From Siniperca chuatsi (lineage: Eukaryota > Chordata > Actinopteri > Centrarchiformes > Sinipercidae): a stretch of 64,000 nucleotides of DNA. Each line of letters begins with the position of its first letter. Position 1 is the stretch's first letter. The notes below the pieces were generated by a model. It had not been told where the DNA came from. It saw only the letters and a program-made list of their open reading frames with translations, and did not search any database. Location of the stretch: contig NC_058045.1 in the NCBI RefSeq assembly GCF_020085105.1, forward strand, positions 16,527,833 to 16,591,832. Reading direction: 5' to 3'. Positions 160 to 64,000 of this stretch are shown piece after piece. A program made the position numbers and the translations under genes.

Positions 160-7788
<7,629 letters not shown>

Positions 7789-7809
7789 CACCTCTTGAGG
7801 ACACTAGAG
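7789..7809 (-). other. polg: polg 5'UTR part of the first coding exon
   Basis: On the minus strand a polypyrimidine tract and AG end at 7810, just before the polg ATG at 7788. This implies a separate upstream non-coding exon, probably in 8.3-8.65 kb, that I could not place. An upstream in-frame GTG at 7791 is not needed as a start. Confidence 0.6.
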
Positions 7810-35715: not shown

Positions 35716-38700
35716 TCAGTTCTGCTCCATGGTGAAATTTGATTCCGCTCTGAAACAAAAAGCATTACATTGTGAAAAACAATGACACCTCATATACTCA
35801 GAGTATACATGAAAGTATTATCAAATCAAACTTTTTTAAATAAACAAACAGTGTGGTGTCAAGGTTTAGATATTTTAAATGTATTTCCTTTTATGGCCTG
35901 CATTAAAAAAAAACATTTTATTTATTGCGATTCGGCCCGTAGATGTTCCTGTATACTCTAGATCACTCTACACTGAAGATAATTTTTCATTCATTAAAAT
36001 TTAAATTAATATGGAATCCACGTATCAGCTACGTCTTATAGTATCATTTTCATTTCCACAGTAAACATGACTTCTGTTGCACAACTTGAAGGTCACTTTG
36101 AAGAGCTGTACATATGGAGCTGTGCTGTGAAAAACCCCTATCAACCAACAGGTGAGCATCACTTGGAAGTACAGAGCACGAGTCCACCTCAGCATTTCAT
36201 AATCTAGAATCTAGAGTTACAAGGATGGCACAGGCCTCTGTGACAGCAGTGCCATGCTGTCTATAGCTGCATCCTGACTGTGTGCTCATACTGTATTCAA
36301 CACTATGAATAGATATTCCCAACAAAGGGCAGTCCAGTGAGTCACTGCAAATTTGGATCTGCTGCCACCAAGAGGACAGTGAATGTAACACATTTCGCAA
36401 CGACAAAGGCACTCCTTGCATCGATTGTTTGGTATGAGCATAGCATATCTCCATGACCAGAACACTGTTGTCAGAAAAACTAAAAAGGACACTTACACAT
36501 CTTTGTTCCGCATGTGGTTGTTGTACTGAATGACTGGTGGGACAATCTCTTCATCCTCAGGAAGCTGTGAACAACATAATGATTCAGGGGGAGAATAATC
36601 ACTACATGATCAACAAAAGGTATGATGCTGTGTGCACTTGTTAATGTCATAAAAAAGGAAAATTATGAATTGTTTCTTTATAAACAGAAGTGGCAGGCTA
36701 TTCATTAACGTACATAATGAGTGGGAAAATAGCCTCAGGGCAAGGAACACTGAACAGTCAAATGTTTCTGAACAAAAATATAGAACAAAGTACAAAAGTA
36801 TGTCTAGACTGTAAATCAAAGATTTTTCATATTTATATACACATAGGATATATATCACATAGGAGTATCTCTTGTAGTGCATCACAGATGGACTTGGTCC
36901 TGATTGGCTCCTCGCAGTAAAGAATTACTGAAATTCTCCCAGTCAGATCAGATTGGAACAGATGAACTGAAAAGCCTCCAATCAGCAGCTGATTAATCAA
37001 GGCCCAGCATTGTGACTGTTTTTGTGATTTGATATTGACATTCCTGTTTCAAACTGTAAAAACTTCTTTATGACTGTAAAGAGTTGTCTCTTACCTCCCA
37101 GTATAGCTCATCATCAAAACAACTGTCATCTGCAGGATCTCCCCAGATAGGTAATCTTAAGATACAACCTGAGAAGAATTATACCAACACATGCAGTCCA
37201 TCATCCACTGTGCGTAAACACACCCATCTTATTCAAACACAGTAATGTCACAGTTGTTTACATACATACTGTATATTTTCAGTTATATGGTTAAACTGAA
37301 GGGCATTTGCAGTGGTTATTCCTTACCGACTAGGATGCCTCCGCCTACACCAAAGCAGATAGCCACACAGAGGCCTGCAGCCTGGTGACCACCCTGCCGT
37401 GTGGGTATCATGTCTTTGAATTGACCCTCAAAGTCAAAGGTGTTAATCAGCCTTTAATACAAAAAAAAGAAAAAAAAGGAGGGAACTCACAATGTTGTTC
37501 TTTCATAACAAAAGTCCATATTTGGCCACAAGAATGCAAATATTCCTGCTTTCCTTTTCTGAGCCTTTACTGGTTGATAATCTTATATCCATTTAATTAA
37601 AAAAGCTAAAGTTACTATGACCTCTGGCTGCTGGTTTCCTATTTTTATGCAAAAACCACTCACCCTTCATGGCCATAAACTGACTCTGTTGCACATGCAG
37701 CAGTAATGGCTCCCACAATGCCACCTATGACTCCTGGCATGGCATGCAGGTTATGGATTCCACATGTGTCTTGGATCTTGAGGTACTTCTCCATGAACGG
37801 CTGAGAAAGAACGATCAGTTAAGTTTCACAGACACTGACTGACAGTTGACTTAGAGCAGTAAAAGCAGTGGTCAGGTAACTGAGTGGCAAATTTAGGAAA
37901 ACACCTTATGTGCTGAAGAAGATAGTCTAGTTAACTCTGACCTCATTTTTATATGACTGTGGCAAGTCAAAGTGTTTTGTATTTTCATTTATATTTGTGC
38001 ATTTTTGTACCTAATTGCCTGGATTGACTAATGAACATGTTCAAAAACTAAACAAAAGCTTATCTCATAATAGCTAGAACACAATAGACCAGAAACACCA
38101 TACCGTGAGATATAGGTATCCCAGTGTGGAGATGACACCACAGCAGAACCCTACGATCAGAGACCCGTAGGGCATCAGCATGAACTCTGCTGCAGTTCCC
38201 ACTGCAACGCCTCCAGCAAGAGTGGAGTTCTGGATGTGAACCTGAGAAACGTGCAGAAAAAAAAAAATGATTTGCTAGTCTCAGAAGAAATACATTAGTG
38301 CATTAGTCTGACCTCTCTTTACTGAATGATGTGTTCACGGTATCAGGAGAAACAGCACGCCATCACTTCAAGGCAAAATTAAGTTTGAGTTTGTTCAGGT
38401 GGGGCACAAGTCATGCACGTCATGTTTGACAATTCAACACAGTGATTTATTTCAGCATAAATACTGTCAACTTGACAAATATACACACCTCCTATTATCA
38501 TAATTATGTACATCATACATAATAGCTTAATTTTATGATGAGTGTTCTTCACTGACATAAAAAAAAAAAACAGTGCTGGTCGTTACCATGTCTAGTTTTC
38601 CATGCTTCTGGGAGAGGCTTGAGATGGCCACACTAGTGAGCACAGTTGAGGCCAAAGCCAGGTAGGTGTTGATGACTGCTCTGTGCTGCCCGTCCCCGTG

Positions 38701-41700
38701 GTCTGTGATGGCTGAGTTGAAGCTGGGCCAGAACATCCACAGGAAGAGGGTGCCTACGCAGAAAGAAGGGTGGAGATACTGATGAAAAGGACCTTAAAAA
38801 TCCAGAGTACCTCCTGAATAATGGGAAGTATTGTGAAAGTTAAAAAAAAAAAAATTCAATATATAATTAAAATCATGCCCACCAATCATAGCAAAGACAT
38901 CTGAATGGTAGACAGAGCCCTGCAGACGACTGCTCTGTTTCAGGTTTGGCCGATAGAGCATCCACGAGATGGAAAGACCATAATAACCTCCAAATGTGTG
39001 GATCACCATGGAGCCTCCAGCATCTCTGGCCTTCAGGTAAGAAACTTAGCATTAGTAGAAGTAGTAGTAGATACGTTAGTTACAGCTACAAGGATGAAGG
39101 AGGTGTTTGATAGGTGGTTACTGGTACTTGATGCTGTTTGTAGGTGGTTTATCACCAGGGGTTCCTCCTGGAGAAGTGTCTATTTTCTGAATGTATTTTT
39201 ATTTTTTAAATCTTTTAAAAATGTGTGGAATTTCATTTTGAATATTGAAAGATCAGCTCGATCTGCCAAAATTAAAGCAGCAAGAAGCAACGAGCAAAGT
39301 CACTTCAGCTTAGGGTTCAAACTGCTAAGTGGTAGAACCCTATTGAGTTTGTGCCAATTATTAAATTATTATTATTATAGTTCAAACCGCGAAATGTGCT
39401 CTACAAAAAAAGCCTCTTAGAACATTAAAGTCCGCCATGATTATGCTAATTAGCATAATGTGAAAAACAGTAAAATTAATAAAAGTTTTAGAATTTTGAC
39501 TATCAACACCAACATTTTTATACAGCATTGCAGGACTGAGATACACGTTTCTATTATAAATTAGTAAGATCGGTCGAAAACCATGGCCACCATCAACCAA
39601 AATATCTTCGCAAAAGGCCCGAAATTGCACGAAATTGGCCATAACTCATTAACGATTTGTCTAATCATCATATATCTTGGGAGATATCTTCAGTTCGTGT
39701 TTGGGAATAGGCGTGCCAAAGTATTTTGAACTCAACCCATAGGGGGCGCCACAAATGCCAGAAAAACTGTACCTCAAAACCCGGTGGACAGAATTTCACC
39801 AAATTTGGTGTGCATGCTCTGGGGGCAAGTATTAACCAAATATGATGGTATCATATTGATTGGTTTTAGTGGACATGGCCTATCACATATTTGCCTGATC
39901 GAGTTGCTTCCTTTCGTTGAGCGAAAAAAGGTTTGAACCCGCCCATTGGCGCCTGCAGCTATATTTATTGTTTCAACTTACATGAATGAGATTCAGGATA
40001 ATATATTCCTCCACAGCAAACAATGTGATCCCAAACAGAGTTAGAACCAACAGCTGGACTGGACTGACTTTACCAAGCACTGCCCCGTAGGCAATTAAGC
40101 AGCCCGCCACACAGAAGTCAGCATTGATCAGGCTGAGGAGGGGAAAAAAAAGTCTAAATGTAGTGGACAAACAAGGCAATATGGGATAATTTGTAATCTG
40201 TACTGGCCAAATATGAGACAATATTTATTTTGGCTCTAAGGATGCACCTATTCAAGAACAGTTATAATCACTGAACGGATCATAAATGTATCTACTTATC
40301 CTGCTCTGTCTTACAGACACACACAGATCATACACCTATCATATATGCTGACACACAGTGACTTGGCTGCACATTAGCAGTATCATGATTTCTCATTACC
40401 ATGAGTTTCTGTTTATCTTCGTAACACAAATAATAAAACTAATGTGCCTAGAAATATCTTTATGGAATCGTGTCAGTCAGACTGGTTTCTCCACCTCACT
40501 GTGCATCCCTGTGTTTTTTCTATGGAAACCATGCAGGTGGAAACACATTCCTGTCAGACATATTTCCCAGTAATTAAAACACAAGAACCAGAGCTGAATA
40601 ACATCACTTGCTTCAGACAGTCACAGTTGTGGCCTCTTATATATTATCATTGAGCCATGAGTTTCTGTTAGATGCATACCTTCATCAAAATTAAAAGATA
40701 ATAAGAAGAAGGGATCCTTTTAACTCTTTGATAATAAAACTGAACAATTACTTTTCAATTCCAATTTTGATCTTTCCATCAGTGTAGTCCAGGGAGTGGA
40801 ACCAGCCTTGCATTAGCAGCGCCCATTGGAGGCCAAAGGCTGCGATGAGGAAGTTGAAACCCACTGCACCAAAGCTGTACCGCTTGAGAAATGTCATCAG
40901 GAAACCAAATCCAACGAAGATCATCACATGGACATCCTGGAAACCTATGGCAAAGACAGAAGAAGGGAGAGAAGGGTAAGAACTGGCCCAATGAATAGAA
41001 AAGGGGAGGAACAGCATGGTGCACCAGTGATCAGAATTATTGTATTTCATCACTGCACTGAAAGACCGAGATTCAATCTTCATCTCCACAAGTGGAGTGC
41101 CTTTCTTCCCGCAAACAAAGTCAGGTGGCTTGAAGCCTCTGTTTGTGGTAGTGCTGGTAACATGTCTGGTTAACACACTGCCCAGGGTTTGCTGGGATAG
41201 ACCTCTTCTAAGAATTAAGATGCCAATTATGTTGATGAACTAAAGTGACAAATGTCTTTCACTTAGTGCTCACAAATCATCTTCTCATTCCTCTGTCTTG
41301 TTGAGGTGTTTCCTCTGTTAGAAAAATCAATATTGCTGTAAATTATTGCCTTATCACAGCTATATCTCTCTGCTCTCTCGAATATATTTTCCAATATGAA
41401 AGAAAAAAACACATAATGCATAAAAAGAAACCGTGTCATATATAATTAAATCATAATTAGGGTTATCATCTTTTATCTAACCACTAAATCAATAGTATGA
41501 ACTTCTGAATGAATTAATATGCCAGTGAAGTTACTTTATATGGACTTTTTGCTTTCATATGTCACCACAGTGCAGGGACACATGAGGGCATATTAGATAA
41601 GAAGGGGAAATCACGTGAAGATGACTCAAGGACATAATGCGTTTACTGTTACTTGCTGATTATATGTTATGATGATACTGAGCTATACAGGTGCCATTTC

Positions 41701-43533
41701 TCTGAGGCTTCCAGGAACTAAAAATAGCTTTGAAACAACATTTGGACATACAGATGTTATGTGTATAGTAATGCACTAATAAAATACTAGATGCCAAAAT
41801 TATACTATAATGCCTCAATGATAACTGACAATTCCATATGCTGAGGAAGTCCATGAGATGTAGTTGAAAACTTCAGAAACATAATAACAGACTCAAATAT
41901 AGAGTGGTAACAAAGAGCTTGATTTATTGTTGGAAATGAAAACGTGTGAAGCATTTCTGAAACAAGTGGCTTTTCTTTGCGAGGCAGTTAACATCTGCTA
42001 TAAATCAGCAAACAGTATGTATACCAGCATAAACCATCCAGTGTCATTTACAACACTGACCGCCCGACACACCTCGGGGCACAAGATGATCCCACTGCAC
42101 TGTAAAACAGAATAGACTGCATAGAAAAATGTATGATACACCGCCTATATCCAATGTCACGTCAGACTGACTGCATATTATTTTACAAACAACAAAGGCT
42201 CCTGAGAACAAACAGGACATACATTTATCACCTGAGATCCAACACCATAGAGATGGCTTCATGATAGCTTGACACTGACACCGCGGGTTGTGTGGGAAGT
42301 GTACAGTACAACCACACACATACAATGCACTCACACCCCAAATTGCAGATAGATAGATAAATAGATATTAAATAAAAACACGTTCTGTACAAAGAGGTAA
42401 GTGTTGATATGTCAGCTACAGTTAAACTGGAAAGAAAAGTGTCAAACATCAGGGGAAATGTGCACCTTTGGGTGTCAGATAATTGTCATCAATGTAGGAA
42501 TACTCTGATAGGTCGACACAGCCTGAGAACTATCATCAATTTGGTTGCTCAAGTAGAAACGTATTTTACTACAATGAAAACAGACAATTTACAACCAAAT
42601 ATTAATAAAATTATCAAACAAAAAGCTAAACGTGCAGAAATGTGGATGCATAAAGATAGAGATGTTTAGTTTATAATAGAAAGACGGATGTGTAAAAATG
42701 TAAGGGTTGCTAGATTAAAAGGTGGGGTATGCGATTCTAATCCAATACACGTTTTTTTTTTTTTTTTTGGTCATTTCTCCTCACAGTCCGCTAGCTGTCC
42801 GTTCAGTGTGCGCTGAAAAGGACTCCGGTGTTTGTGCACAGCCCTGGCTCTGTAAACTGGAAACAAACAAAGAGGCTCGGACCGAGCCACACAACACTAT
42901 TCCTGCCATGATTTGTGTGTCAGATAACATTAAATGACTTGCCCGCGGACATTCAGCAACTTTCTACTTTGCTAAGACGCGTTGTTGTTGTGCTGTAAGC
43001 ATTAGCAGCAGGACAGCTGTGAGTGTCGCTGTCTGAAGCTGGTCTGCTGGCTCTGGGAAAAGTCTCGTCCTCCTCACATGTTAGCTGTAGCCACAGTTTG
43101 CTAACCCACAACTTAGCTAAGGATAGTTATATTTATATTAATTGCTGTGTCGTTGTTCGCTCTATGTAATGTTATTTGATTTCTCTAGAATTGCATACCC
43201 CACCTTTAACAAATTAAGAAATAAAAGTGATGCTTGAGATATTAGACATTTGGAAAAGAGAGTATATTAGAAAAAGAAGAAAAAAAGAAAATCTAAATGA
43301 AGTCACTTACTTGGATATCTGAAGTAGAAGTCGTTCTCAATGTCACTTGATATATTTGCAGCTTTTCTGTGCTCTATCCAGTGTGGGTCAGATTCTTCAT
43401 CATAACGAATAAAAATCCCAAACAAGATGATCATAGCTGTTTGCCACACAACGCAAACTGCTGGAAGACTGAGACGAACATTAGTATTTTTTGGACCGTC
43501 ACACAACTCCCTGAAGCTTTGAACGCAGCCCAT
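35716..43533 (-). CDS. rhcg: Rh family C glycoprotein, ammonia channel, complete
   Basis: Conducts ammonia across epithelial membranes; in fish, Rhcg proteins act at the gill and kidney. Exons on the minus strand: 43533-43311, 40944-40752, 40132-39982, 39030-38883, 38753-38587, 38241-38104, 37800-37664, 37451-37327, 37168-37095, 36564-36497, 35749-35716, giving 485 residues with consistent phases. The pore twin-histidines are present: H200 in VIHTFGGY and H359 in NLHAMPG, matching human RhCG H185 and H344. Other family signatures are [14 protein letters not shown] and [12 protein letters not shown] near residue 60 is a likely glycosylation site in the first extracellular loop. The last exon adds a short tail ending MEQN; if it is skipped, the frame stops one codon after the 36497 junction. 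Fish carry rhcg paralogs (a/b) and I cannot tell which this is. Introns 1 and 3 hold transposons. Confidence 0.96.
39240..39970. repeat. Probable dispersed repeat in rhcg intron 3
   Basis: The intron between rhcg exons 3 and 4 contains a block with the flavour of an interspersed element: CATAGGGGGCGCCAC, CCATAACTCATTAACG, CACCAAATTTGGTGTGCA. A GGGTTCAAAC / GTTTGAACCC inverted pair lies at 39313-39322 and 39931-39940. Its composition differs from the rest of the gene. I cannot name the family or fix the borders. Confidence 0.45.
40945..43310. other. rhcg: rhcg intron 1
   Basis: The 2.4-kb first intron carries the MITE at 42718-43208. The remainder is AT-rich without recognisable elements. Confidence 0.6.
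42718..43208. mobile_element. MITE in rhcg intron 1
   Basis: The ends are inverted repeats: AAAGGTGGGGTATGCGATTC at the left and its near-perfect complement GAATTGCATACCCCACCTTT at the right, one mismatch over about 20 bp, enclosing about 450 bp without a coding frame. The interior is more GC-rich than its surroundings. Confidence 0.75.
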
Positions 43534-45798
43534 GTTTTTGGTTAGTTTTGATCTTTTGTAATTTGTTTCTTTTTTTTTAAGGTATGGGAGCTGCTAAACA
43601 GATGAACTGTTAAAGTGAGCTGTCTTCTGCTAAACTAACAGACACATTACAGGGCCTGAGCATCTTAAGCACGAGTGATGACGGGCAAGGATGGGTGTCT
43701 GCTTTAATAAGAGGACACTCCCACAGTCACTCCCTCCACTATTGCACCTGGACTGTACTAGACTTGCTCTTCAGGTGGTTACACATCTTATGTTAGAGAA
43801 AATTACGTGACTCTCAATGCTTTATAATAATTTAATATAGTATTTTTTTTCCAAGCATTTTGTATGGGCATAAGTCATCACACAATGTAAAAATGGTACT
43901 GTACCATAAAATTCTACCACTGCTAAGGTTCTGTGGTAAAAGGACAGAGGAAACATGCTTCATATCCCGATCAAACAGGAGAAAAATTATATTTATTTTG
44001 GGACATCCTGTAAAGAGATTGTGTTGGTTATACCAGTCTGGTTAGGATGTAATCCAGTCAACAACTACAAGGATTAGATAGCTTTGACATTTTCTTGGGG
44101 CCTGCTCCCTTAACACAGACACTCTTTGTATGTAAGAGAAAGATAAGCTGTCATTTTTGTACATGTGAAACTTATAATATTCAGACAGGCTTCTACAGCA
44201 CTTACAAATTTTGTTTTCTTACTACAAGTCAGAGAACAGGGACATTTTTATCTCCTACAGGGCTGATCCTGTGAAGCATTAACTGTAAATAATGTGTATC
44301 CATGCCTGACTCAGTCAGCCATCATAGTCATAGGGTACAAGGTCGAGACAAGGGTCCAGTATTTATTTATTTATTTATTATTACTTAAGTCTGGGTTTTT
44401 CTGCACTGTTGCATTGCACATTTTAAAATAATAATTTAAGCCCTCTCTGGACAATCTGAACGTCAATACCCAGAAATCATGTACTGTGACAATCAGTAAA
44501 CCTCATGTGTCACACACTGTGATGCCTCATACTTAGGACAAAGTTGCAAAAGGGACAAAGACATCCAATGTCAGTGAAATGTCAAGCTATTACGGTTATC
44601 TGCTAACTACAAGGTGTAATCTTTAATGTTAACTTTAATGTTAATGTTTTAACTGACCAAAGCCAGCATTATTATATCATGATAAATAAAGTAAGGTGAT
44701 GAGACATACATGCATTTCCAGCATTTTGTGTTTTATATGATGCAATTTAACAGCTCTCTTATTTAGTTACATATGGTCATGTATAACAAATACATTCTAC
44801 ACATGCAGTATATGTGAGTATGACGTATAAGTGAATGACCTTTCATCTTTGAGTAATCACTGTAGAGATCACATTATTTACTAAACAGACACAGCATCAT
44901 TCCTGGGAGTGACCAGGCACTGACTGGCTAGAACAAGCGCTGAGGTGTGACAGGATGATGACCATGAAGGTGACTCTCTTTGAACATAACAGATATCCTC
45001 AGTTACCTCTATTAAAGGCGACACCAACAACCTAGCCAGTGTTGGGTTTTTTTCAAAACTGAAAACCTCTCTCTCAAGAAACCAACTAGCCATTTAGTGC
45101 ATAGAAGAGATTAGACATAATTTTATGAGTAAAGAAATACCAAAGTGACTCCACAAAATTCCACAAATAAGTGTGACAATCACTTAAATATGTAACCAAG
45201 ATGTAATTCTTATGTATTTTTTGCTACAAACTTGCATATAGGCCTTTTTATTGCTGCAAAATTGTTGAGTGCTGCAAGGAAAGATTATCATAAACTGGAG
45301 AATGCGTTTTTGTTCTCTGCTAGTCAAATATCCTGCACACGACACTGTATCAAAGCTTAAAGGCATTACACCACACAGTTTTCTGGTCAAGGCAGTACAA
45401 AATAACTGCAAAAGAAAATATCTTATCGAGTCATTATCTCACTAGGAGAAAAATGAGCATGTCAGCAGTTAGATCAATGCACTGGTTGTGTGCTCACCAA
45501 TGAGGAACCTCATTAAAGTGAGTGAGCAGGCGTCTGTGCTCACTGATCTTACTGCTCGGCTTAGCACTGCCACCTTGGTGATGTAATTCTGGCAGATGAT
45601 GTGCTCTTCAGGGATGATGTGTAGAGTTGATCCTACTTGATCTGAGCACCACTGTCAGGCTTGTTGAAGCAGCTTTTGTATCTAATATTTTCTTTAGTAT
45701 AAAGGAAAGACACAGAGTCAATTTTTGTCATTATGTTAAACAAATAAAACATGTTTTATTTGTGCAGCATGTGTGTTACCTATGCCTAAGGCTTTCTT
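43534..45798. other. rhcg upstream region
   Basis: This should include the rhcg promoter and 5'UTR, immediately right of 43533. I see no clear TATA box and no other gene. A TTTA repeat run lies near 44361-44380. Confidence 0.4.
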
Positions 45799-50143: not shown

Positions 50144-50233
<90 letters not shown>

Positions 50234-50605: not shown

Positions 50606-53600
50606 ATGGAAGCCAGCAACAATGAAGTAAGTACAATTGTGTTTGAAAATGTAATACTTTTAAGCAATAATATCTTAAAAGTTATTGAAATATAGTACAG
50701 AAAGAGGTGAAGGCTCCTAAGAATAACTTTTTGATAATGATTTTTTTCTTACTCATGTAGTGAAATGGTTTAAACCTTATGAAAGCTTTAAGAGTAAGAT
50801 AATAATAGAGTTGTATGTGTTTGGTTGAACAGATGGCAGTCTGGTCCTCTAGTTATGTTAAACACCATCGAGAGTTTCTATTACCAACACATCATACTCA
50901 CTAAGATAGCCTACATTCTAGCTTGTTTAAAAGTTAGTTTTGTAAAAATCCTATTATGATTGAATTTGTATAGCTATTTTAATGTGGCCATAAAACTACA
51001 GTCTACTTTCAAACAACATAACAGTCTTAGAAAAAAAGAAAAATAAGAAACGTATTGCCCTGATTGTGTCAGCTTGTCTTTAATTTCATTTTCTCTGACA
51101 GTTTTGTGCCATTCTCTTTTGTAGACAGGAAAGAAAGCAGAGGATCAAGCCCACACTCTAAATATAAATATGACCCCAGATACTGATGCAGAGCTCACAG
51201 CAAAGGATGTCCAAGGTATGTCATGCATTCATCCTATCACTGTGTAGTCTAGATAGTGAATATTAATACATTCCTTTAAATTTAAATTTAAATTAAATCA
51301 CATTTAAACAGTTATAAAAAATAAAAGATAAATGCAATAAACATACATGTGTGGAACAAATAATATAAGATTCATAATAAAGTGTAACAAAAATAATCTA
51401 AATTCAAACATCTACTTATTAACTTTCTGGAGCTTCAAACTGCTCCTGGTGGTGTTATTACTGTGAGATACTAGCTAGAGATACTAGGTCTAGTTAGTAT
51501 GTAGACCTTTGAGCTTGGATTAATTTGTCACATATATTGTTACCAAAGGTCTAGAATAAAATTTGTGCTCAGATAGGCCTATATTAAAAGTAATTCAAGC
51601 AGTTTTATGACATTCTATAATAGTCTCAAACATTATTAAGAATTGACCTAAGGCATATCTTGTTATGACCTACTTAATATACAGTATGTCATAATTTTTT
51701 TTTCTGGGAAGCCAAATTTTCAGAATACACAATAAATTATAATACATTGAAAGCAAATTAAATACTGTATCCATATTTTAATGGTCAGATAGTCACATAG
51801 ATTGATTTGGCTTACTAAGTACCATATACATTTTGTATAATTAGTCTGAGTCTGCACAGTGATTTAATGTTCTAATGTTGTACTTGTTTGATGCTTTTCT
51901 TTTCTCACACCAGGTCAGCATGCCACTTCTGCAGAGAACGGAGAACACAACCCTAAAGTTCAACCCGGCCCTGTCACAGATAAGGAAAATGCTGTTAAGC
52001 CAAAACTCCAGATAACTTTTAACACGTTTACTGTCAAGAATGGTGAAGATTTGAAAGTAGAGGTCCCAGTGGTTGGGCACCCAGCACCAAAGATTGAATG
52101 GAGAAGAGATGGTCAGGCAGTCAAAGAGACATCAAGGCTAGAGGTTTCAAATACATCGTCATTAACGGTTCTTCATATCAGACGTGCTGCCAGGGAGCAG
52201 TCTGGTCAATACTCTATCACAGCAAGCAACAGTGCTGGAAAATATACAGGAGAAATCATTGTGGTTGTTCTTGAGAAGCCGGACCCACCCACAGGGCCTG
52301 TGAGGATTGATGAGGTCAGTTCTGACTATGTTACCATCTCCTGGGAGCCACCAGAATACACAGGAGGCTGTCAGCTAGACAACTACATAGTGGAGAAACG
52401 GGAAACTACAAGTACAGAATGGCAGACTGTGTCAGCAACGACAGTAAGAACCACAATCAAAGTCACCAAACTGAAGACAGGAAGTGAATACCAATTCAGA
52501 TTGTTGGCAGAAAATAGGTATGGAAAGAGTACTGCAATCACCTCTCCTCTTGTAACTGCACAATATCCTTTTAGTGTGCCCACTGCTCCTGGCACCCCCT
52601 TTGCGTCCGCAGTGACAAAGTACAGCATGGTGGTTGAATGGGAGCCTCCAGCCAAAGATGGAGGCAGCCCCATCATCGGCTATCACCTTGAACGCAAAGA
52701 GAAGAACAGCATTTTATGGACCAAACTGAACAAACTTGTTATACCTGATGCTCGCTTCAAAACAGGTGGACTGGAGGAAGGCATTGAGTATGAATTCAGA
52801 GTCTTTGCTGAGAATATTGCTGGACTCAGTCCATCTAGCAAGATATCTGAGTCATATGTGGCAAGAGACCCGTGTGATCCACCCGGTAAACCTGAAGCTG
52901 TTGTCATTACTAGAGAGAACATCACACTTCAGTGGGCAAAACCCAGGTATGATGGTGGAAGCACCATTACAGGCTACGTTGTTGAAAAGAAGGAGCTCCC
53001 AGATGGCAGATGGATGAAGGCAAACTTCACCAGTGTTATTGAGAATCAGTTCACAGTCACAGGTCTGACAGGAGGCCAAAGTTATGAGTTTAGAGTAACT
53101 GCTAAGAACGGTGCTGGTGTTTGGAGCACCCCTTCAGAAAGTGTAACCATCATCGCTCAGGATGTTATTGAAGGACCCACAGCATTCATTGATCCTAAGT
53201 TCAAGAGTACTACTGTTGTTCAGGCTGGTGAGACATTCGTTATTGATGCTGATTACTTCGGGAAGCCCCTCCCTGAAGTAACATGGCTGAAAAATGGAAA
53301 AGGAATTGACAAAGTTACACCGAGAATGGAGGTCAAAAACACCCTCACTCATACAACTCTGACCGTCAGAGACTGTACACGAGTGGATGGAGGACACTTT
53401 GTCTTGAGCCTCAGTAACACTGGTGGAACTACATCTATCCCAGTTAATGTGAAGGTCCTCGATAGACCTGGTCCTCCAGATGGACCTCTGAAGGTGAAAG
53501 TTGTCAGTGCAGAGAAGTGTAATCTTCACTGGAACCCCCCTGTAAATGATGGCGGTGCCAGTGTTTCCCACTACATCATTGAAAAAAGGGAGACCAGCCG

Positions 53601-56600
53601 TGTTACATGGACAGGGGTTGAGCCTCACGTTGAGGCTGTCAGTTACAAAGTGACAAAACTGGTGCCTGGTAAAGAATATATATTCAGGATTGCTGCCGTG
53701 AATAAATTTGGTGTTGGTGAATTTCTGGAATCAGACCCCTTCATTGCACAAAACCCTTTTACAGCACCTAGTGCACCTTCTACCCCTACAGCCAGCGCTG
53801 TGAATGGTGACTCTGTAGTGCTAACATGGGAAAGGCCTGAGACTGATGGAGGCTCAGAGATTGATGGCTACATCCTGGAGAAACGTGACAAAGAGGGTGT
53901 CAGGTGGACTAAATGCAACAAGAGAAGACTAAATGATTTACGCTTCAGATGCACAGGGCTCGCTGAGGGACATTACTATCAGTTTAGAGTATCGGCAGAG
54001 AATGCTGCTGGTCTGGGTGCACCCAGTGAGCCAAGTGAGTATATAAAAGTATGTGAAGCTACGTACCCACCTGGTCCCCCTACCAACCCCAAAGTGACAG
54101 ACTATTCCAGCAGTACTGTGTCTCTGACATGGTCAAAGCCCATCTATGATGGTGGAGCAGCCATCAGTGGATTTGCAGTTGAGATGAAAGAAGCAGCAGA
54201 AGATGAGTGGATCACTTGCACACCAAGCACAGGTGTAGAGGACACAAACTACACTGTGAAGAGACTGAGAGAAAATGCAGAGTACAATTTTCGTATATGT
54301 GCGATGAACGCCGCTGGAGTTGGAGAACATGTGGATCTACCTGGGTCTGTGGTAGCTGCTGAAAAACTGGAGGCACCAGAGATTGAGTTGGACACTACCT
54401 TGAGGAAAATGGTCAGTGTTCGAGCCTGTTCCACATTATGTCTCTTTGTCCCCATCAGAGGAAGGCCAGAGCCTGAGGTTAAGTGGTCAAAGGAAGGTGG
54501 CACTCTCAGTGAGTGTGCTCAAATTAAGGTAACAAGCTCCTACACAGAGTTATTGATTGAGAATGTCAATAGAAATGACACAGGAAAATATGTGTTGACT
54601 GCTGAGAACTGCAATGGTTCTAAATCAGCATTCATCAATGTCAGAGTATTGGACTCTCCCAGCGCACCAACAAATTTAGAGGTAAAGGATGTAAAGAGAG
54701 ACTCTGTGTCCATCTCCTGGGATGCACCTCTCATTGACGGAGGAGCAAAGATTTCACACTACATCGTAGAAAAACGAGAGGAGGCTAGGAAGGCATTCAC
54801 AAGCATCTGTAGCAACTGCGTGAGAAACTCATACAAGATTGACAATCTCCAGGAAGGATGCTTCTATTATTTCCGTGTCCTGGCTGTGAATGAGTTTGGC
54901 ACTGGACTGCCAGTAGAGACCACCGATGCTGTTAAAGTGTCTGAAGCTCCTCTGCCTCCTGGCAAAATCACACTCAGTGATGTTACTTGCAGCAGTGCAA
55001 GACTCTCTTGGGAGAAGCCTGACCATGATGGAGGAAGCAAAATCACATGTTATATCGTAGAAATGCAGGCTAAGGGAGATGACACATGGACAATATGTTC
55101 AGAGAGTAAAGCACTGCAAGTGACTATTAATGGGCTGGCAAAAGGAAAGGAATATTGCTTTAGAGTGACTGCTGTAAATGAAAAGGGAAAAAGTGAACCA
55201 AAGTCCCTTTTGGCACCTGTTACAGTAAATGATACTAGTGCTGAGCCCATTATTCATTTGTTGTCCAACACATTCAGTGTGAGGGCAGGAAATGATTTAA
55301 AGATTGATGTTCCATTCAAGGGTGTACCACCGCCAACAGTAGCCTGGAAGAAAGATGGCAACTTGCTGAAAGAGACAAGCAGGGTAAATGTGCACACATC
55401 TGACACATCATCTCAGATCATTATCAAAGATGCAACCAGAATAGACGTTGGTGTGTATGAGGTGACGCTGGCCAACTCAGTTGGAACCACATCCACTGAA
55501 ATCTTTGTTAATGTGTTTGAAAGACCTGGACCACCAAGTGACCTCAGCGTGGATGAAGTGAGTGCTGACTTTATGTCTTTGTCATGGCAGCCCCCACATT
55601 ATACTGGCGGATGTCAAATCAGTAATTATGTGGTTGAGAAGAGAGATACAGGCAGCACAACATGGCAGACTGTGTCAGCTACAGTTGCCAGAACATCAAT
55701 CAAAATTTCCCGTCTGACACAGGGCACTGAATATCAGTTTCGTATTGCTGCAGAGAATCGCTACGGCAAAAGCCACTTTGTTGAGTCTGAACCTGTTGTT
55801 GCCCAGTATCCCTTTAAGCCCCCTGGTCCACCAACCACTCTCCGAATTGTGAATGCCTCAAAGTCTGTCATGGTGGTTGCATGGAGCAAGCCAGACAGTG
55901 ATGGTGGCAGCCCTATTATTGGTTATCATATTGAATGCAAAGATCAAAGCAGTATTTTGTGGACAAAGTTAAACAGAAGCCCAGTGACTGACAACCAGTT
56001 CAAGGTAACAAGTGTTGAAGAAGGTCTGATATATGAGTTCAGGGTCTGTGCTGAGAATATGGCTGGTGTTGGACCATGCAGTAAGGCATCTGAGCCTGTA
56101 GCAGCAAGAGATCAGTGTGATCCCCCACGCAACCTCACAGTCACCAATATAACCAACAGCTCAGTTTCCCTCTCATGGGACAAACCAGAATATGATGGTG
56201 GGGCTAAAATAACTGGGTACATTGTTGAGCGCAAAGAGCTGCCAGATAGTTGCTGGCTTAAGTGTAACTTCACCAACTTACAGGACACCTTCTTGGAAGT
56301 GACTGGCCTCACAGAGGGTGAACAGTATGATTTTCGTGTGATTGCAAAAAATGCAGCTGAGCTCTTCAGTGCCTCCTCTGAAACCACAGGACCTGTTACA
56401 GTGCAGCATGACGTAGAGCCACCCAAAATTATCTTGGAGGACAAATTTAGACAGGTGGTGGTTGTCAAAGCAGGAGAGCTCCTAAGAATAGATGCTGACA
56501 TCTCTGGTCGCCCCAACCCTACAGTGTTTTGGTTGAAGAATGGTAGAAATATTGGCACCAAGGGAAGGGTTGAGATAACTGCAACAAAGACACATACCTC

Positions 56601-58433
56601 TCTACTTATCAGAGAAACGGTTAGGAAAGACTCTGGACAGTATACTCTGACCCTACAGAACACAGGTGGTACCACATCTAAGGCTATCACCTGCAAGGTC
56701 CTGGACAGGCCCAGCCCACCTGCTGGACCTCTGGAAGTGTCTGGACTCTCAGCAGAGAAATGCACCCTGTCATGGGGACCCCCTCATGAGACTGGCGGTG
56801 CTGAGATCATGCACTACATTGTTGAAAAGTGTGAAACCAGCCGTGTAGCTTGGATCCTTGTGTACGGTGACATGATGGCAACTACTTGCAAAATAACCAA
56901 GCTGCTCAAAGGAAATGAATACCTGTTCAGGGTAAGGGCAGTGAACAAGTACGGGGAAGGTGAGACTTTGGAAAGTGAGCCTATCAAGGCCATGGATCCC
57001 TTTAGTATCCCATCTGCTCCGATGGATGTTGAGGTCACAAGTGCAACCAGCGATGCTATGACTATCTGCTGGAAGAGACCTGCCACTGATGGCGGCAGCC
57101 GCATCAGCGGATACATTATAGAGAAGAGGGAGAAGCAGGGTGTTCGTTGGGTTCGTGTCAATAAGAAACCAGTCTATGACCTACGAGTCAAAGCCTCCTG
57201 CCTGCATGAGGGATGTGAGTATGAATTCAGAGTTTTTGCTGAGAATGCTGCTGGATTAAGTGAACCCAGTCTCCCATGCCCACTCACTCTGGCAGAGGAT
57301 CCAAAGTTTCTACCTTCCCCTCCTGCAAAACCCACCATAATGGATTCATCCAGGTCCTCCATCACTCTGTCATGGAACAAGCCGCTGTTTGATGGTGGAG
57401 CAGCAGTCACTGGGTACAAAGTTGAATTCAGAAAATCATCAGAAGAAGATTGGACTGTTGGTGTCCATAACACAGATAAAACTGAGTTTACAGTTACTGG
57501 ACTCGCTTCGGAGACGGAATACGTGTTTATTGTCAGATCCATAAACAAGATTGGCATCAGCGAGCCCAGTCCTGAAACAGATCCTCAAGTGGCCATGGAG
57601 AGAGAGGAGGAGCCCAGGTTTGATATTAGCACCGAGATGAGGAAGGCCCTGCTTGTTAAAGATGGCAGCTCCTTCACTTTGACTGTGCCTTTCATAGGCA
57701 AACCTGTTCCCAGTGTGACATGGGACAAAGCAGATGTAGATCTGAGAGTCAGAGGAATGATCAACACCAGCAGCTGCGTCACATCTATCACAGTGGAAGG
57801 GGCAACACGTGATGACTCTGGCAAATATATAGTAAAACTGCAAAACGTTGCTGGATCTGCCTCTTTGACGCTGAATGTGAGGGTTTTGGATTCACCTGGT
57901 CCACCAACTCATGTAGCAGTTAAAGATGTGACCAAGAACTCTGCCACTGTTTCATGGGACATCCCTGAGAATGAGGGAGGAGCCCCAGTCAAGAACTATT
58001 TTGTAGATATACGGGACATCAGCAGAAAAGGGTGGACGAGACTCACGGACAAATGCCGCCGACTGTCCTACAAGGTGTCTGACCTGGAGGAGGGAGGAAT
58101 CTACTTCTTCAGAGTCACAGCTGAAAACGAGTACGGGATCGGTGTTCCAGCAGAGACCAAGGAGGGAACGAAAATGGCAGGTACAATCTGTGAAGAATAA
58201 GCGCATTAAGAGTTGTTATATTTAGTAGGAATAAAAAAACCTAACTATTGTGACGGAATTAGTGGCTAAGTAGGATGTAAAATTTTTTAGAAAATGATTA
58301 GATATGTTAAGCACCAGAACTTCCTTCACGTTTCGCACATTATTCTTGTATGCATTGAGAGTAATTCTGTATTTTTATTATTATTATTGTTATTTCAGAT
58401 ACAACAGACTGGGAGACAAATCCAGGAGCTTAG
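50606..58433 (+). CDS. Free-standing titin-like protein: two A-band C-zone super-repeats
   Basis: Exons 50606-50626, 51125-51215, 51914-58180, 58399-58433 have good GT-AG borders and matching phases and give 2137 residues. An acidic, low-complexity N-terminus (1-67) starts MEASNNETGKK. Then come 21 domains: Ig about 68, three Fn3, Ig about 456, three Fn3, Ig about 856, two Fn3; then Ig about 1147, three Fn3, Ig about 1538, three Fn3, Ig about 1937, one Fn3; and a tail ending DTTDWETNPGA. Fn3 hallmarks (SW.PP..DGG..I..Y.VEKRE, Y.FRV.A.N..G.) recur throughout. The 4-4-3 spacing is the 11-domain super-repeat of the titin C-zone, the thick-filament part that binds myosin and MyBP-C. Kinase, PEVK, Z-disc and M-line regions are absent. 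The 6.27-kb exon has no stop, so a decayed copy is unlikely. The role is inferred (thick-filament or cytoskeletal binding). Alternative: a fragment of a longer gene, but the ATG, stop and poly(A) signal argue against that. Confidence 0.88.
51999..55239 (+). repeat. Titin-type super-repeat 1 (11 domains)
   Basis: Ig-Fn3-Fn3-Fn3-Ig-Fn3-Fn3-Fn3-Ig-Fn3-Fn3, about 1080 codons. It aligns domain by domain with the next unit; for example SPIIGYHLERKEKNSILWTK here matches SPIIGYHIECKDQSSILWTK in the second unit. Confidence 0.85.
55240..58180 (+). repeat. Titin-type super-repeat 2 (10 of 11 domains)
   Basis: Same order as unit 1 but ending after the first Fn3 of the last pair, so the final Fn3 is missing. 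The cut falls at a domain boundary and is followed directly by a splice donor. Confidence 0.85.
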
Positions 58434-58651: not shown

Positions 58652-58657
58652 AATAAA
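58652..58657 (+). terminator. poly(A) signal of the titin-like gene
   Basis: AATAAA about 220 bases after the stop codon at 58433, in the same orientation. Confidence 0.65.
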
Positions 58658-59211
58658 ATGATTTTGTTTGTTTCTGGTTCAAAAAATAATAACTACAAAA
58701 AAATGATGATGTTTGTTGCAAATATACAATAAATGAAGATGATTAGAAGAGTTATTAGAGTTTTACTTTTGATTTGTTATGGGAAGTTATATGCTATTAA
58801 CACTGGATGACATGAAGACATTCCAAAAGAATACAAATAAGACAAGATTAATGAATCAATTAAAATAAAACAAACAATATCAAACAAACAAAAAAAGAAA
58901 AGCGTGGAAAGATTTACTTTTATACTGTAAAATTTGAGGTAGAAGACTGGGACTTCACTTGAGTATTTCCATTTTGTATACTGTAGTTCATACAGTCCAC
59001 TAGTAAGTGACATCATTACTGTGTCATTAGAGAGTTTTTACACACTACCTGCTCCCTCCTGCAATAATTTCATTGTGTTAAATAATTAATTTAGCACTAT
59101 ACATACGTTTGAGTTTTTTTTTTACATTTCACTGCCAGTTTGCAAGTTTTACTTTTAGTTATTTTTTGCTGGAACCTTTTTATATTTTGGTATACAAAAG
59201 TAGTTAAAGGA

Positions 59212-61682: not shown

Positions 61683-64000
61683 TTAAGAGCAAGCTACTTC
61701 TTCCTTGACGACAGCAGCAAAAGTGTTCCACGCCCCGCACACTACATCAACCACACGCATCTGCTGCTCCCTGAAGAACTCCACAAGCTGGGGCTCATCT
61801 GAACTGATTAAAGTCTGGTGTCCAAGTTGGCCGTAGTCACCTGAAATGGTAATAGAAGGAGAGATGAACAAGGTAAGTTCAACATATACCTAAGCTGTGC
61901 TCTAAGATTACTGATTAATTGAATTGGTACTGGGAACATGCTACAAAGATGTAACAGATTTGCAACAGATTAAAAATCTGTTTAAGTGTCAGTTTAGCTC
62001 CAAATTCAAACTTACCCCAGCCCCAAGTGTAGAGGTCACCTGTGGCTGAAATTAGAAAATACGAGATAAAGATGACATTAACTTGCCAAGAAATTGTGCA
62101 TCAATATACTTCCACTGTCAAGTGAGGTTTCGTACTTGTTACTGCAGCTGTGTGGCGGCAGCCACAGCTGACTGCCCTGATCTCACATGATGGAGTGATA
62201 TCTAGCAGAGCCGGGAATGCTTGGATCGATATGAATACATCTTCATGTTTCTCTCCCTCCCGTGGCTCTTCAGCAGGAAATGTGCTGGCATCTTGGCACG
62301 GTGTTCCTGTTCAGTACAGTTAATGTCGCAGTTCTTACTACAACATAAGTCATTACTTTAAAAAAGGGACAGTTCACCCCCAAAATCAAAAATACATATT
62401 TTTCCTCCTACTTGTAGTGCTATTTATCCATCTAGATTGTTTTGGTGTGAGTTGCTGAAGTTTGGAGTTATTGGCTGTAGAGATGTCTGCATTATTTTTT
62501 TTTTAATATAATGGGACTATATTATAGGAACTATAGCGGCAAAAAACTTTTTTTTGAAAAATTCAACAGCAATGTCTCTTTCCAGAAATCATGACCCTTT
62601 CTGTGGATTATCTTGAGTAACCAGGTCATGATTTCTGGAAAGTGTGCTGTTTGGCGCTTTGAACACCACAAGCCGAGTGCCATATAGTCCCATTATATTC
62701 AAAAAATGCAGACGTCTCTATGGCCGATATCTCCAAAACTCGGCAACTCACAGCAAAACAATCTAGATGGATAAATAGCGCTACAGGTAAGAGGAAAAAT
62801 ATGTATTTTTGATTTTGGAGTGAACTGTCTCTTAAGTGACGACTATGAGCAGCATGCCTGGCAACATATATGAAATATTTAGTTAAGGGGGTGGTTCATC
62901 CATGAACAATATAAGGCATTGTCCATACCTCAAGAGCTATCGATGCACTGAAATAGTTTGTGAATTAGCAAAGATTTTGAGATATCAACTGTAGCTCACA
63001 ATGGAGCTTGATGGCACAGGCGAGTGCCAAAAATACACACACAAACTGCACAATGCAACTGAGAGAGATGTATTGGGGTAAAGTACACCTCAGCTAATTA
63101 CACAAAAGTGTTTGGATTGATAGCACTGTAGGTAACAAATTATGAGTTTGATGCAAACAGATTTACCTGCTTGTTGGCTACTTTGCTGCTGCGGTGCTTT
63201 CCTCAGACCTCGTGATGGAAGTCCAAGCTGGCCACTTTCATTCCAGCCCCACACATAAAGGTCACCCCCGTCTGAAGAAAAGGTAATTTGAGGTCTTTAT
63301 TCATTTTTTTTTAAACCTCAAATTGAGGGCATAACCTTTTTTCACTGCCAACATCTTGTATGACACTTACCACTAATGCAGACAGAGTGCCAGCCTCCTG
63401 TAGCTACACAGCTCATGGGCATCCCCCAGAGTGCCTCCACTGCCCTGGGCTGCTCCTCAGAGGTGAGGTCTCCATGCCCCAACTGACCATGGCTGTCAAA
63501 TAAACACATGCAGGCACGAAACGTCAAGACATGCTTGATGGTGTTGTTGCTCAGATTCCCAATAAAGACAGACGTGTGAGTATTATGTCTACCTGCCCAG
63601 TCCCCATGTGTACACAGCTCCAGAGGCACTGAGAAGGATAGCATGCTCTGCACTGAGTGCCAGACTCTTGGCTTTCAGCTGTGGTGATAAGGGGCGGTAG
63701 AAGGGCGGTTTTGTGGCTATGTAACCCCCAGGGACCAATGGGAGATTCAAAGGGGGTCCTGGAAAGCAGCAAGAAGTGTGCTGTTTAGCAAGTTATCACA
63801 ACACAGGCTACTAGCAGCTGTCAAAGGAGATTAGGATATACATTACCGGAGCTCTCTGTTTTTATTTCCATGCTCCATGATGGGGTCTTCTCTTTTTTTT
63901 GCAGATCCCAGGACTCAATTCTGTCCGGGAAAGCGAGGGTCAAGTACAACTCACTGATGAAGGCATCTTTACAGCCAGGGGTCTCTTTCATAGAAATACC
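61683..64000 (-). CDS. rccd1: RCC1 domain-containing protein 1, partial (5' end off the window)
   Basis: A chromatin-associated beta-propeller protein; in human it partners the demethylase-family protein KDM8 and affects chromosome stability. Exons on the minus strand: 64000(open)-63847, 63758-63593, 63492-63371, 63271-63167, 62306-62136, 62045-62016, 61840-61683, with phases agreeing throughout and the stop after [11 protein letters not shown]1-repeat signatures: [60 protein letters not shown] and [10 protein letters not shown]. One exon is only 30 bases. The order matches human RCCD1, including the [12 protein letters not shown] linker before the repeats. The start codon and first exon lie beyond 64000. 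The 860-bp intron 62307-63166 carries a fold-back element. Confidence 0.95.
62364..62833. mobile_element. Fold-back MITE in an rccd1 intron
   Basis: A 470-bp element whose outer arms of about 155 bp are inverted copies. The left arm begins AAGGGACAGTTCACC and includes TTATCCATCTAGATTGTTTT; the right arm ends in the complementary GGTGAACTGTC-like sequence and includes AAAACAATCTAGATGGATAA. A second inner palindrome (CAGAAATCATGACC / GGTCATGATTTCTG) is at 62583-62637. There is no coding capacity. Confidence 0.85.

Follow-up and report, generated by a model that had tools for sequence, protein, structure and literature searches.

A 64-kb stretch of the Siniperca chuatsi genome (C4:16527833-16591832; this whole stretch is the window, and positions given without a contig count from its first letter) carries a titin-like gene between cib1 and a gene that we take to be gdpgp1. 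We consider it probable that this is a functional protein-coding gene whose product is an unanchored rod of titin C-zone domains, most likely on the thick filaments of some striated muscle. The body of the gene is one exon of 6,267 nt, exon 3 of the gene model (51914..58180, +), with 21 Ig and Fn3 domains of titin C-zone type, recognized by its open reading frame, Pfam, hidden Markov models (HMMs), homology, and the ratio of nonsynonymous to synonymous substitution rates (dN/dS, or omega). Judging from the alignments, the final ~6.2 kb of the long A-band exon in ttnA, one of two tandem titin genes of the species, was copied to this interval at the DNA level. The copy has evidently been held in frame since then, with purifying selection acting on every one of the 21 domains.

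Exon 3 lies within an open frame at 51892-58200 (+) of 2,102 codons with no stop, in agreement with the first-pass annotation of the window, which had described a stop-free exon of 6.27 kb. Pfam identified 15 fn3 and 6 I-set stretches in this frame, and HMMs built from the gene's own and titin domains resolved 21 domains in the order IFFFIFFFIFFIFFFIFFFIF (I-FFF-I-FFF-I-FF-I-FFF-I-FFF-I-F), the same 6 Ig and 15 Fn3 domains in titin order that had been read from the translation. The 11-domain order Ig-Fn-Fn-Ig-Fn-Fn-Fn-Ig-Fn-Fn-Fn is present as one complete super-repeat with eight domains before it and two after it, which bears out the earlier estimate of a protein about two super-repeats long. 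The top solved-structure match was titin chain 8q6t_I (1,604 bits, residues 318-1395), which we take to be the human titin C-zone; MyBP-C and myomesin were much weaker matches (8g4l_bo, 238 bits; 5fm5_M, 108 bits). With its short exons, the predicted product would have 2,137 amino acids, a mass of 234 kDa, and an isoelectric point of 5.6.

The genome used for searches comprises 719 Mb in 65 contigs, and 22 of 413 candidates from the whole-genome search were scored. Two titin genes, ttnA and ttnB, lie on the same strand at C12:28.61-28.85 Mb and 29.15-29.35 Mb, with long A-band exons in open frames of 5,732 and 5,788 codons. Two titin genes on one chromosome are reported for eel, zebrafish, and fugu (PMC12198301, excerpt), and two are also counted in teleosts by a second study (PMC12241362, excerpt). 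Among the matches listed, the closest relative of the gene was C12:28642613-28648825, the 3' end of the 5,732-codon frame of ttnA, with 72% amino acid identity over query residues 19-2089, compared with 56% for the colinear part of ttnB; the remaining 38 matches listed were all at the titin loci on C12. Since ttnA and ttnB are ~60% identical in the corresponding region, the gene is closer to ttnA than the two titins are to each other, and the copying therefore postdates the ttnA/ttnB split. In the domain-by-domain comparison with titin of the same species, as the first-pass annotation had suggested, the colinear domain of this one titin was the best of 119 for 20 of the 21 domains, and the best match of the remaining one was another ttnA domain. 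The latter, domain 4 (52876-53121), matched ttnA domain 30 rather than the colinear domain 41 and is a weak point of this comparison. Domain 4 retains the LPDGR motif of super-repeat position 7, and unique changes are about as numerous in the colinear ttnA domain 41 as in the gene. The last Fn3 (position 11) of ttnB was split into two HMM hits in three of the five super-repeats of its long exon; the apparent cause is an insertion of ~20 residues that has no counterpart in ttnA or the gene.

At the DNA level, the gene and ttnA are 73% identical. The homology begins near 51998, mid-exon and just ahead of an Ig domain, and ends at the parental donor: the GT after exon 3 (58181..58182, +) stands at the same place as the donor of the parental exon (...GGCAG/GTACAA in the gene, ...CACAG/GTATTG in ttnA) and scores weakly. 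The flanks of the gene have no match to the ttnA intron and next exon. Homology that ends at the parental donor with the next exon unmatched points to copying at the DNA level, as the first-pass annotation had proposed for part of the long titin exon, with subsequent decay of the non-coding part. A processed retrocopy was ruled out on the same grounds, as the next parental exon is absent. Identities of 73% in DNA and 51% at third positions ruled out a recent or assembly duplicate. Gene conversion with ttnA was likewise rejected; there was no long identical tract, the longest identical run was 23 nt, and third-position identity was 0.37-0.72 in 60-codon windows.

The C-zone of titin has 11 super-repeats (PMC5648799, excerpt). 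We counted back from the kinase end only, with the final repeat set as C11: past its long exon, ttnA has the rest of one 11-domain repeat and three further repeats, followed by Ig-Ig-Fn-Fn-Ig-Ig-Fn and the kinase (Fn3 hits split in two were merged, and one Ig hit of score 8 was ignored). On this numbering, the copied source is evidently C6 positions 4-11, the whole of C7, and C8 positions 1-2. According to the HMMs and the domain comparison, domains 1-4 (Ig Fn Fn Fn; 52030..53121, +) and 5-8 (Ig Fn Fn Fn; 53215..54324, +) are the counterparts of C6 positions 4-7 and 8-11, domains 9-19 (54412..57561, +) of the entire super-repeat C7, and domains 20-21 (Ig Fn; 57652..58143, +) of C8 positions 1-2. 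Domain 9 (54412-54636, +), the first Ig of the C7 counterpart, stands at the MyBP-C-binding Ig position (role from PMC10665226, excerpt).

The ttn duplication has been placed before teleost diversification (PMC12198301, excerpt). In codon comparisons on the 2,058 ungapped codons of the gene, ttnA, and ttnB, third-position identity was 51% between the gene and ttnA and 42-44% in the comparisons with ttnB, and the neutral distance between the gene and ttnA was 0.605 of that between ttnA and ttnB (60 bootstraps, 0.46-0.74). The copy is old by these measures; from the same sites, which are saturated, and the general timescale of fish evolution, we infer an age comparable to that of the spiny-rayed fish radiation.

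The dN/dS of the gene, which the first-pass annotation had proposed to compute against orthologs, was far below 1 when measured against ttnA and ttnB (0.159-0.167). Codon-based maximum likelihood with free branches gave an omega of 0.159 on the gene branch (bootstrap 0.127-0.211), and omega = 1 was rejected with 2ΔlnL, twice the difference in log likelihood, of 38.9. When the gene and its parent were given equal neutral time, as is justified by their sharing one genome, omega was 0.167 and omega = 1 was again rejected (2ΔlnL 646.4); per-domain values were 0.06-0.31 in all 21 domains. The free fit by quarters gave 0.15, 0.10, 0.31, and 0.15. A weak point is the free-branch fit to the 519 Ig codons alone, in which the gene branch had an omega of 1.37 with very uneven branch lengths; we took this as a degenerate optimum, and at equal neutral time the Ig codons gave 0.243, with omega = 1 rejected (2ΔlnL 111.4). 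Neutral decay simulated from ttnA over an equal distance produced ~72 stops (at least 50 in 30 of 30 runs) compared with none in the gene, and the alignment of the gene with ttnA has 3 gap columns.

The gene also retains features tied to the super-repeat beyond the domain folds. Conserved columns were defined as those identical in six of six super-repeats, namely super-repeats 1-3 of the ttnA and ttnB long exons, and register-specific columns as those tied to super-repeat place rather than general to Ig or Fn3 domains. In repeats 1 and 2, the gene keeps 291 of 322 and 234 of 287 conserved columns, compared with 303/322 and 232/286 in ttnA and 299/322 and 237/287 in ttnB. The register-specific columns kept were 80/99 and 59/89 in the gene, 87/99 and 59/89 in ttnA, and 87/99 and 60/89 in ttnB. 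Seven conserved columns of repeat 2 were lost by the gene alone and nine by ttnA alone; by these counts, repeat 2 equals titin in conservation and repeat 1 falls somewhat short of it. The Ig of position 1, a binding site for MyBP-C (PMC10665226, excerpt), keeps 17/18 and 13/18 conserved columns in the gene and 16/18 and 13/18 in ttnA. The other candidate surface is position 7, with the Fn3 motif LPDGRxxxxxFTNxx[DE] (PMC10665226, excerpt), which reads LPDGRWMKANFTSVIE in repeat 1 (one change) and LPDSCWLKCNFTNLQD in repeat 2 (two changes), whereas ttnA repeat 2 has LPNGRWLKCNFTNLQD (one change). Because most of titin's register is kept, beyond what the fold would require, a place on the thick filament is favored, with one surface possibly altered; we regard this as support and not as proof.

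On the interpretation that we prefer, the 3' 6.2 kb of the ttnA long exon, copied after the ttnA/ttnB split and since kept under purifying selection, would specify a rod of ~235 kDa with 21 domains, about two 43-nm super-repeats, that lacks the Z-disc, I-band spring, kinase, and M-band parts. This rod would most likely lie along the surface of myosin filaments in the C-zone of some striated muscle, where it would keep MyBP-C and the myosin tails in register but provide no link from the filament to the Z-disc. Its role would be to supplement titin or fill in for it over a short length, not to serve as a ruler. Several observations weigh against this interpretation. The register columns have been kept partly through shared ancestry with ttnA, not by selection alone. 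The gene is less constrained than ttnA at equal neutral time (omega 0.167 vs 0.090, 2ΔlnL 36.1), a difference that was not significant with free branches (2ΔlnL 3.5); it has 206 unique residues compared with 112 in ttnA, and the quarter with an omega of 0.31 is the third (residues 1051-1575). In repeat 1, 24 conserved columns were lost by the gene alone and 11 by ttnA alone. In repeat 2, LPDGR of position 7 has become LPDSC, and position 7 holds four of the seven gene-only losses, a concentration noticed post hoc. The 405 bp upstream contain no MEF2, CArG, MCAT, or TATA match, three CANNTG E-boxes (one of them CAGCTG; the window average is 2.3 per 405 bp), and three CCAAT boxes, so that muscle promoter motifs provide no clear support.

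The lack of a muscle motif cluster upstream, the faster evolution than in ttnA, the excess of losses in repeat 1, and the altered position-7 surface of repeat 2 would also suit a functional protein outside the sarcomere, namely a cytoplasmic Ig/Fn3 scaffold elsewhere (e.g., in smooth muscle or the germ line) with the rod as a stable spacer. We regard such a role as unlikely: the register-specific residues, needless for a generic spacer, are kept nearly as in titin, and although the Ig domains evolve faster than the Fn3 domains (omega 0.243 vs 0.143 at equal time), ttnA displays the same trend (0.118 vs 0.080). A competitor or cap in muscle, which would occupy titin or MyBP-C sites and limit or tune titin-dependent length or strain sensing, has a lower probability still. 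Two super-repeats with a largely intact register and no anchoring ends agree with it, and deletion of two C-zone repeats from mouse titin led to shorter thick filaments (PMC5648799, excerpt), which shows the importance of this unit for filament length, but the sequence reads alike for a cap and for a neutral filler. Faster protein evolution than in ttnA could also be expected of a decaying duplicate open by chance. However, the omega of 0.16-0.17, the rejection of omega = 1, the absence of stops from 2,102 codons, and the 3 gap columns rule out a pseudogene for most of the gene's history and leave room just for a very recent loss of expression, which makes this explanation highly improbable.

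Comparably improbable are an assembly artefact and a larger titin-like gene to which the exon would belong. Onward splicing from the retained parental donor is conceivable, but the HMMs of these domains detected no other titin-like exon at E <0.01 in the 64-kb window, which reaches ~52 kb upstream of the exon, or in 19.9 kb past its right end, and the gene thus stands free of further titin-like exons there, as the first-pass annotation had supposed. The best HMM hit outside the exon was a marginal Ig at 1889-1939 (E 0.016), which we took as chance. Of the Z-disc, I-band spring, kinase, and M-band parts of a complete titin, no further Ig/Fn3 exon was found near the gene; the kinase motif was sought in the titin stretches only and is present in ttnA. 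The C4 locus is single among the genome matches listed, its flanks have no other long matches, and a misassembly would be near-identical to ttnA rather than 73% identical in DNA.

Cronos and Novex-3 are short isoforms of the TTN gene itself; the gene described here would likewise specify a shorter titin product, but is separate and has C-zone domains only. MyBP-C, myomesin, obscurin, IGFN1, and the invertebrate mini-titins are free-standing muscle Ig/Fn3 proteins. In the prevailing view, the C-zone repeats of titin determine the length of thick filaments and the placement of MyBP-C, and to our knowledge, vertebrate C-zone repeats are known solely inside giant titin. Compared with the teleost pair ttn.1/ttn.2, one of which is the direct parent, the gene shares domain types, order, and an exon border, but it has 21 domains, another chromosome, and its own 5' end, and no Z-disc, I-band, kinase, or M-band part was found near it. 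With titin C6-C8 it shares the position pattern and most register-specific residues, whereas its product would not be covalently joined to titin, begins at C6 position 4, ends at C8 position 2, and has an altered position 7 in repeat 2. By its sequence, it is evidently a long-established third titin gene that is confined to the C-zone, and as such it would correct the two-titin-gene picture in fishes. It further indicates that a piece of a giant exon, cut mid-exon at one end and at the donor at the other, can become a lasting gene, and two C-zone repeats kept by strong selection in a separate gene would be a natural test of their role alone. More tentatively, and with rather less confidence than in the muscle rod itself, many spiny-rayed fishes may carry such a gene, with the unanchored two-super-repeat unit loading onto thick filaments and tuning their length, the loading of MyBP-C, or the stability of the myosin off state apart from titin's spring; if so, evolution has already uncoupled the repeats that act as ruler or scaffold from the remainder of the titin molecule. 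Among the titles and abstract openings listed in a literature search, no paper described such a gene, and no paper was found that pairs titin with gdpgp1, whether or not cib1 was included; public gene annotation, which possibly names it titin-like, was outside its coverage. PMC4232633 and PMC4220927 mention a fish titin-like protein by name only.

The gene model has exons at 50606-50626, 51125-51215, 51914-58180, and 58399-58433 (+), with GT-AG at all three introns and a single open frame. The four exons with correct splice sites and phases of the first-pass annotation thus hold as to borders and frame, while the short exons are plausible but unproven and the 3' tail, with its weak splice signals, is the weakest part. 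Since the translation of exon 3 has no methionine in its first ~240 codons, a protein that includes all 21 domains has to begin in coding exons further upstream. Predicted exon 1 (50606..50626, +; start codon, 7 amino acids) has A at -3 and G at +4 of the ATG and a GTAAGT donor, and predicted exon 2 (51125..51215, +; 91 nt) has AG/GT borders and preserves the frame. This 5' model ranked first of nine models with one or two upstream exons, to which the model set was limited, that passed a simple splice score using general vertebrate frequencies; of 40 Markov shuffles of the upstream sequence, 1 yielded a model that scored as well or better. Among the genome matches listed, exons 1-2 had no other match and no source gene, and the 13 other matches listed for the upstream DNA were all to a dispersed repeat within intron 2, a fragment of which lies at 51492-51574. 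Predicted exon 4 (58399..58433, +) would supply the final 11 residues and TAG. Given the weak scores of the exon 3 donor (0.3) and the exon 4 acceptor (2.6), translation may run on without splicing to the stop at 58198-58200, which would give an alternative product of 2,132 amino acids. The poly(A) signal noted earlier was confirmed as AATAAA at 58652..58657 (+), 3' of the predicted tail exon; further copies occur at 58230, within predicted intron 3, and at 58728 and beyond, and the one at 58230 could serve the unspliced form.

The interval named in the first-pass annotation is secure on one side, where cib1 was established by sequence; the other flanking gene, presumably gdpgp1, had no match in Pfam, PADLOC, or PDB. 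By eye, a long (AC)n microsatellite lies upstream of the gene at ~50145-50233, and two arms at ~62370-62840 next to cib1 resemble inverted repeats, possibly of a small transposable element. Elsewhere in the window are polg (600-7800, -; Pfam DNApol_Exo above and DNA_pol_A below the cut-off) and a Rh/ammonium transporter gene (38000-43600, -), probably rhcg. The neighborhood of polg, the probable rhcg, the presumed gdpgp1, and cib1 is reminiscent of human 15q26.1.

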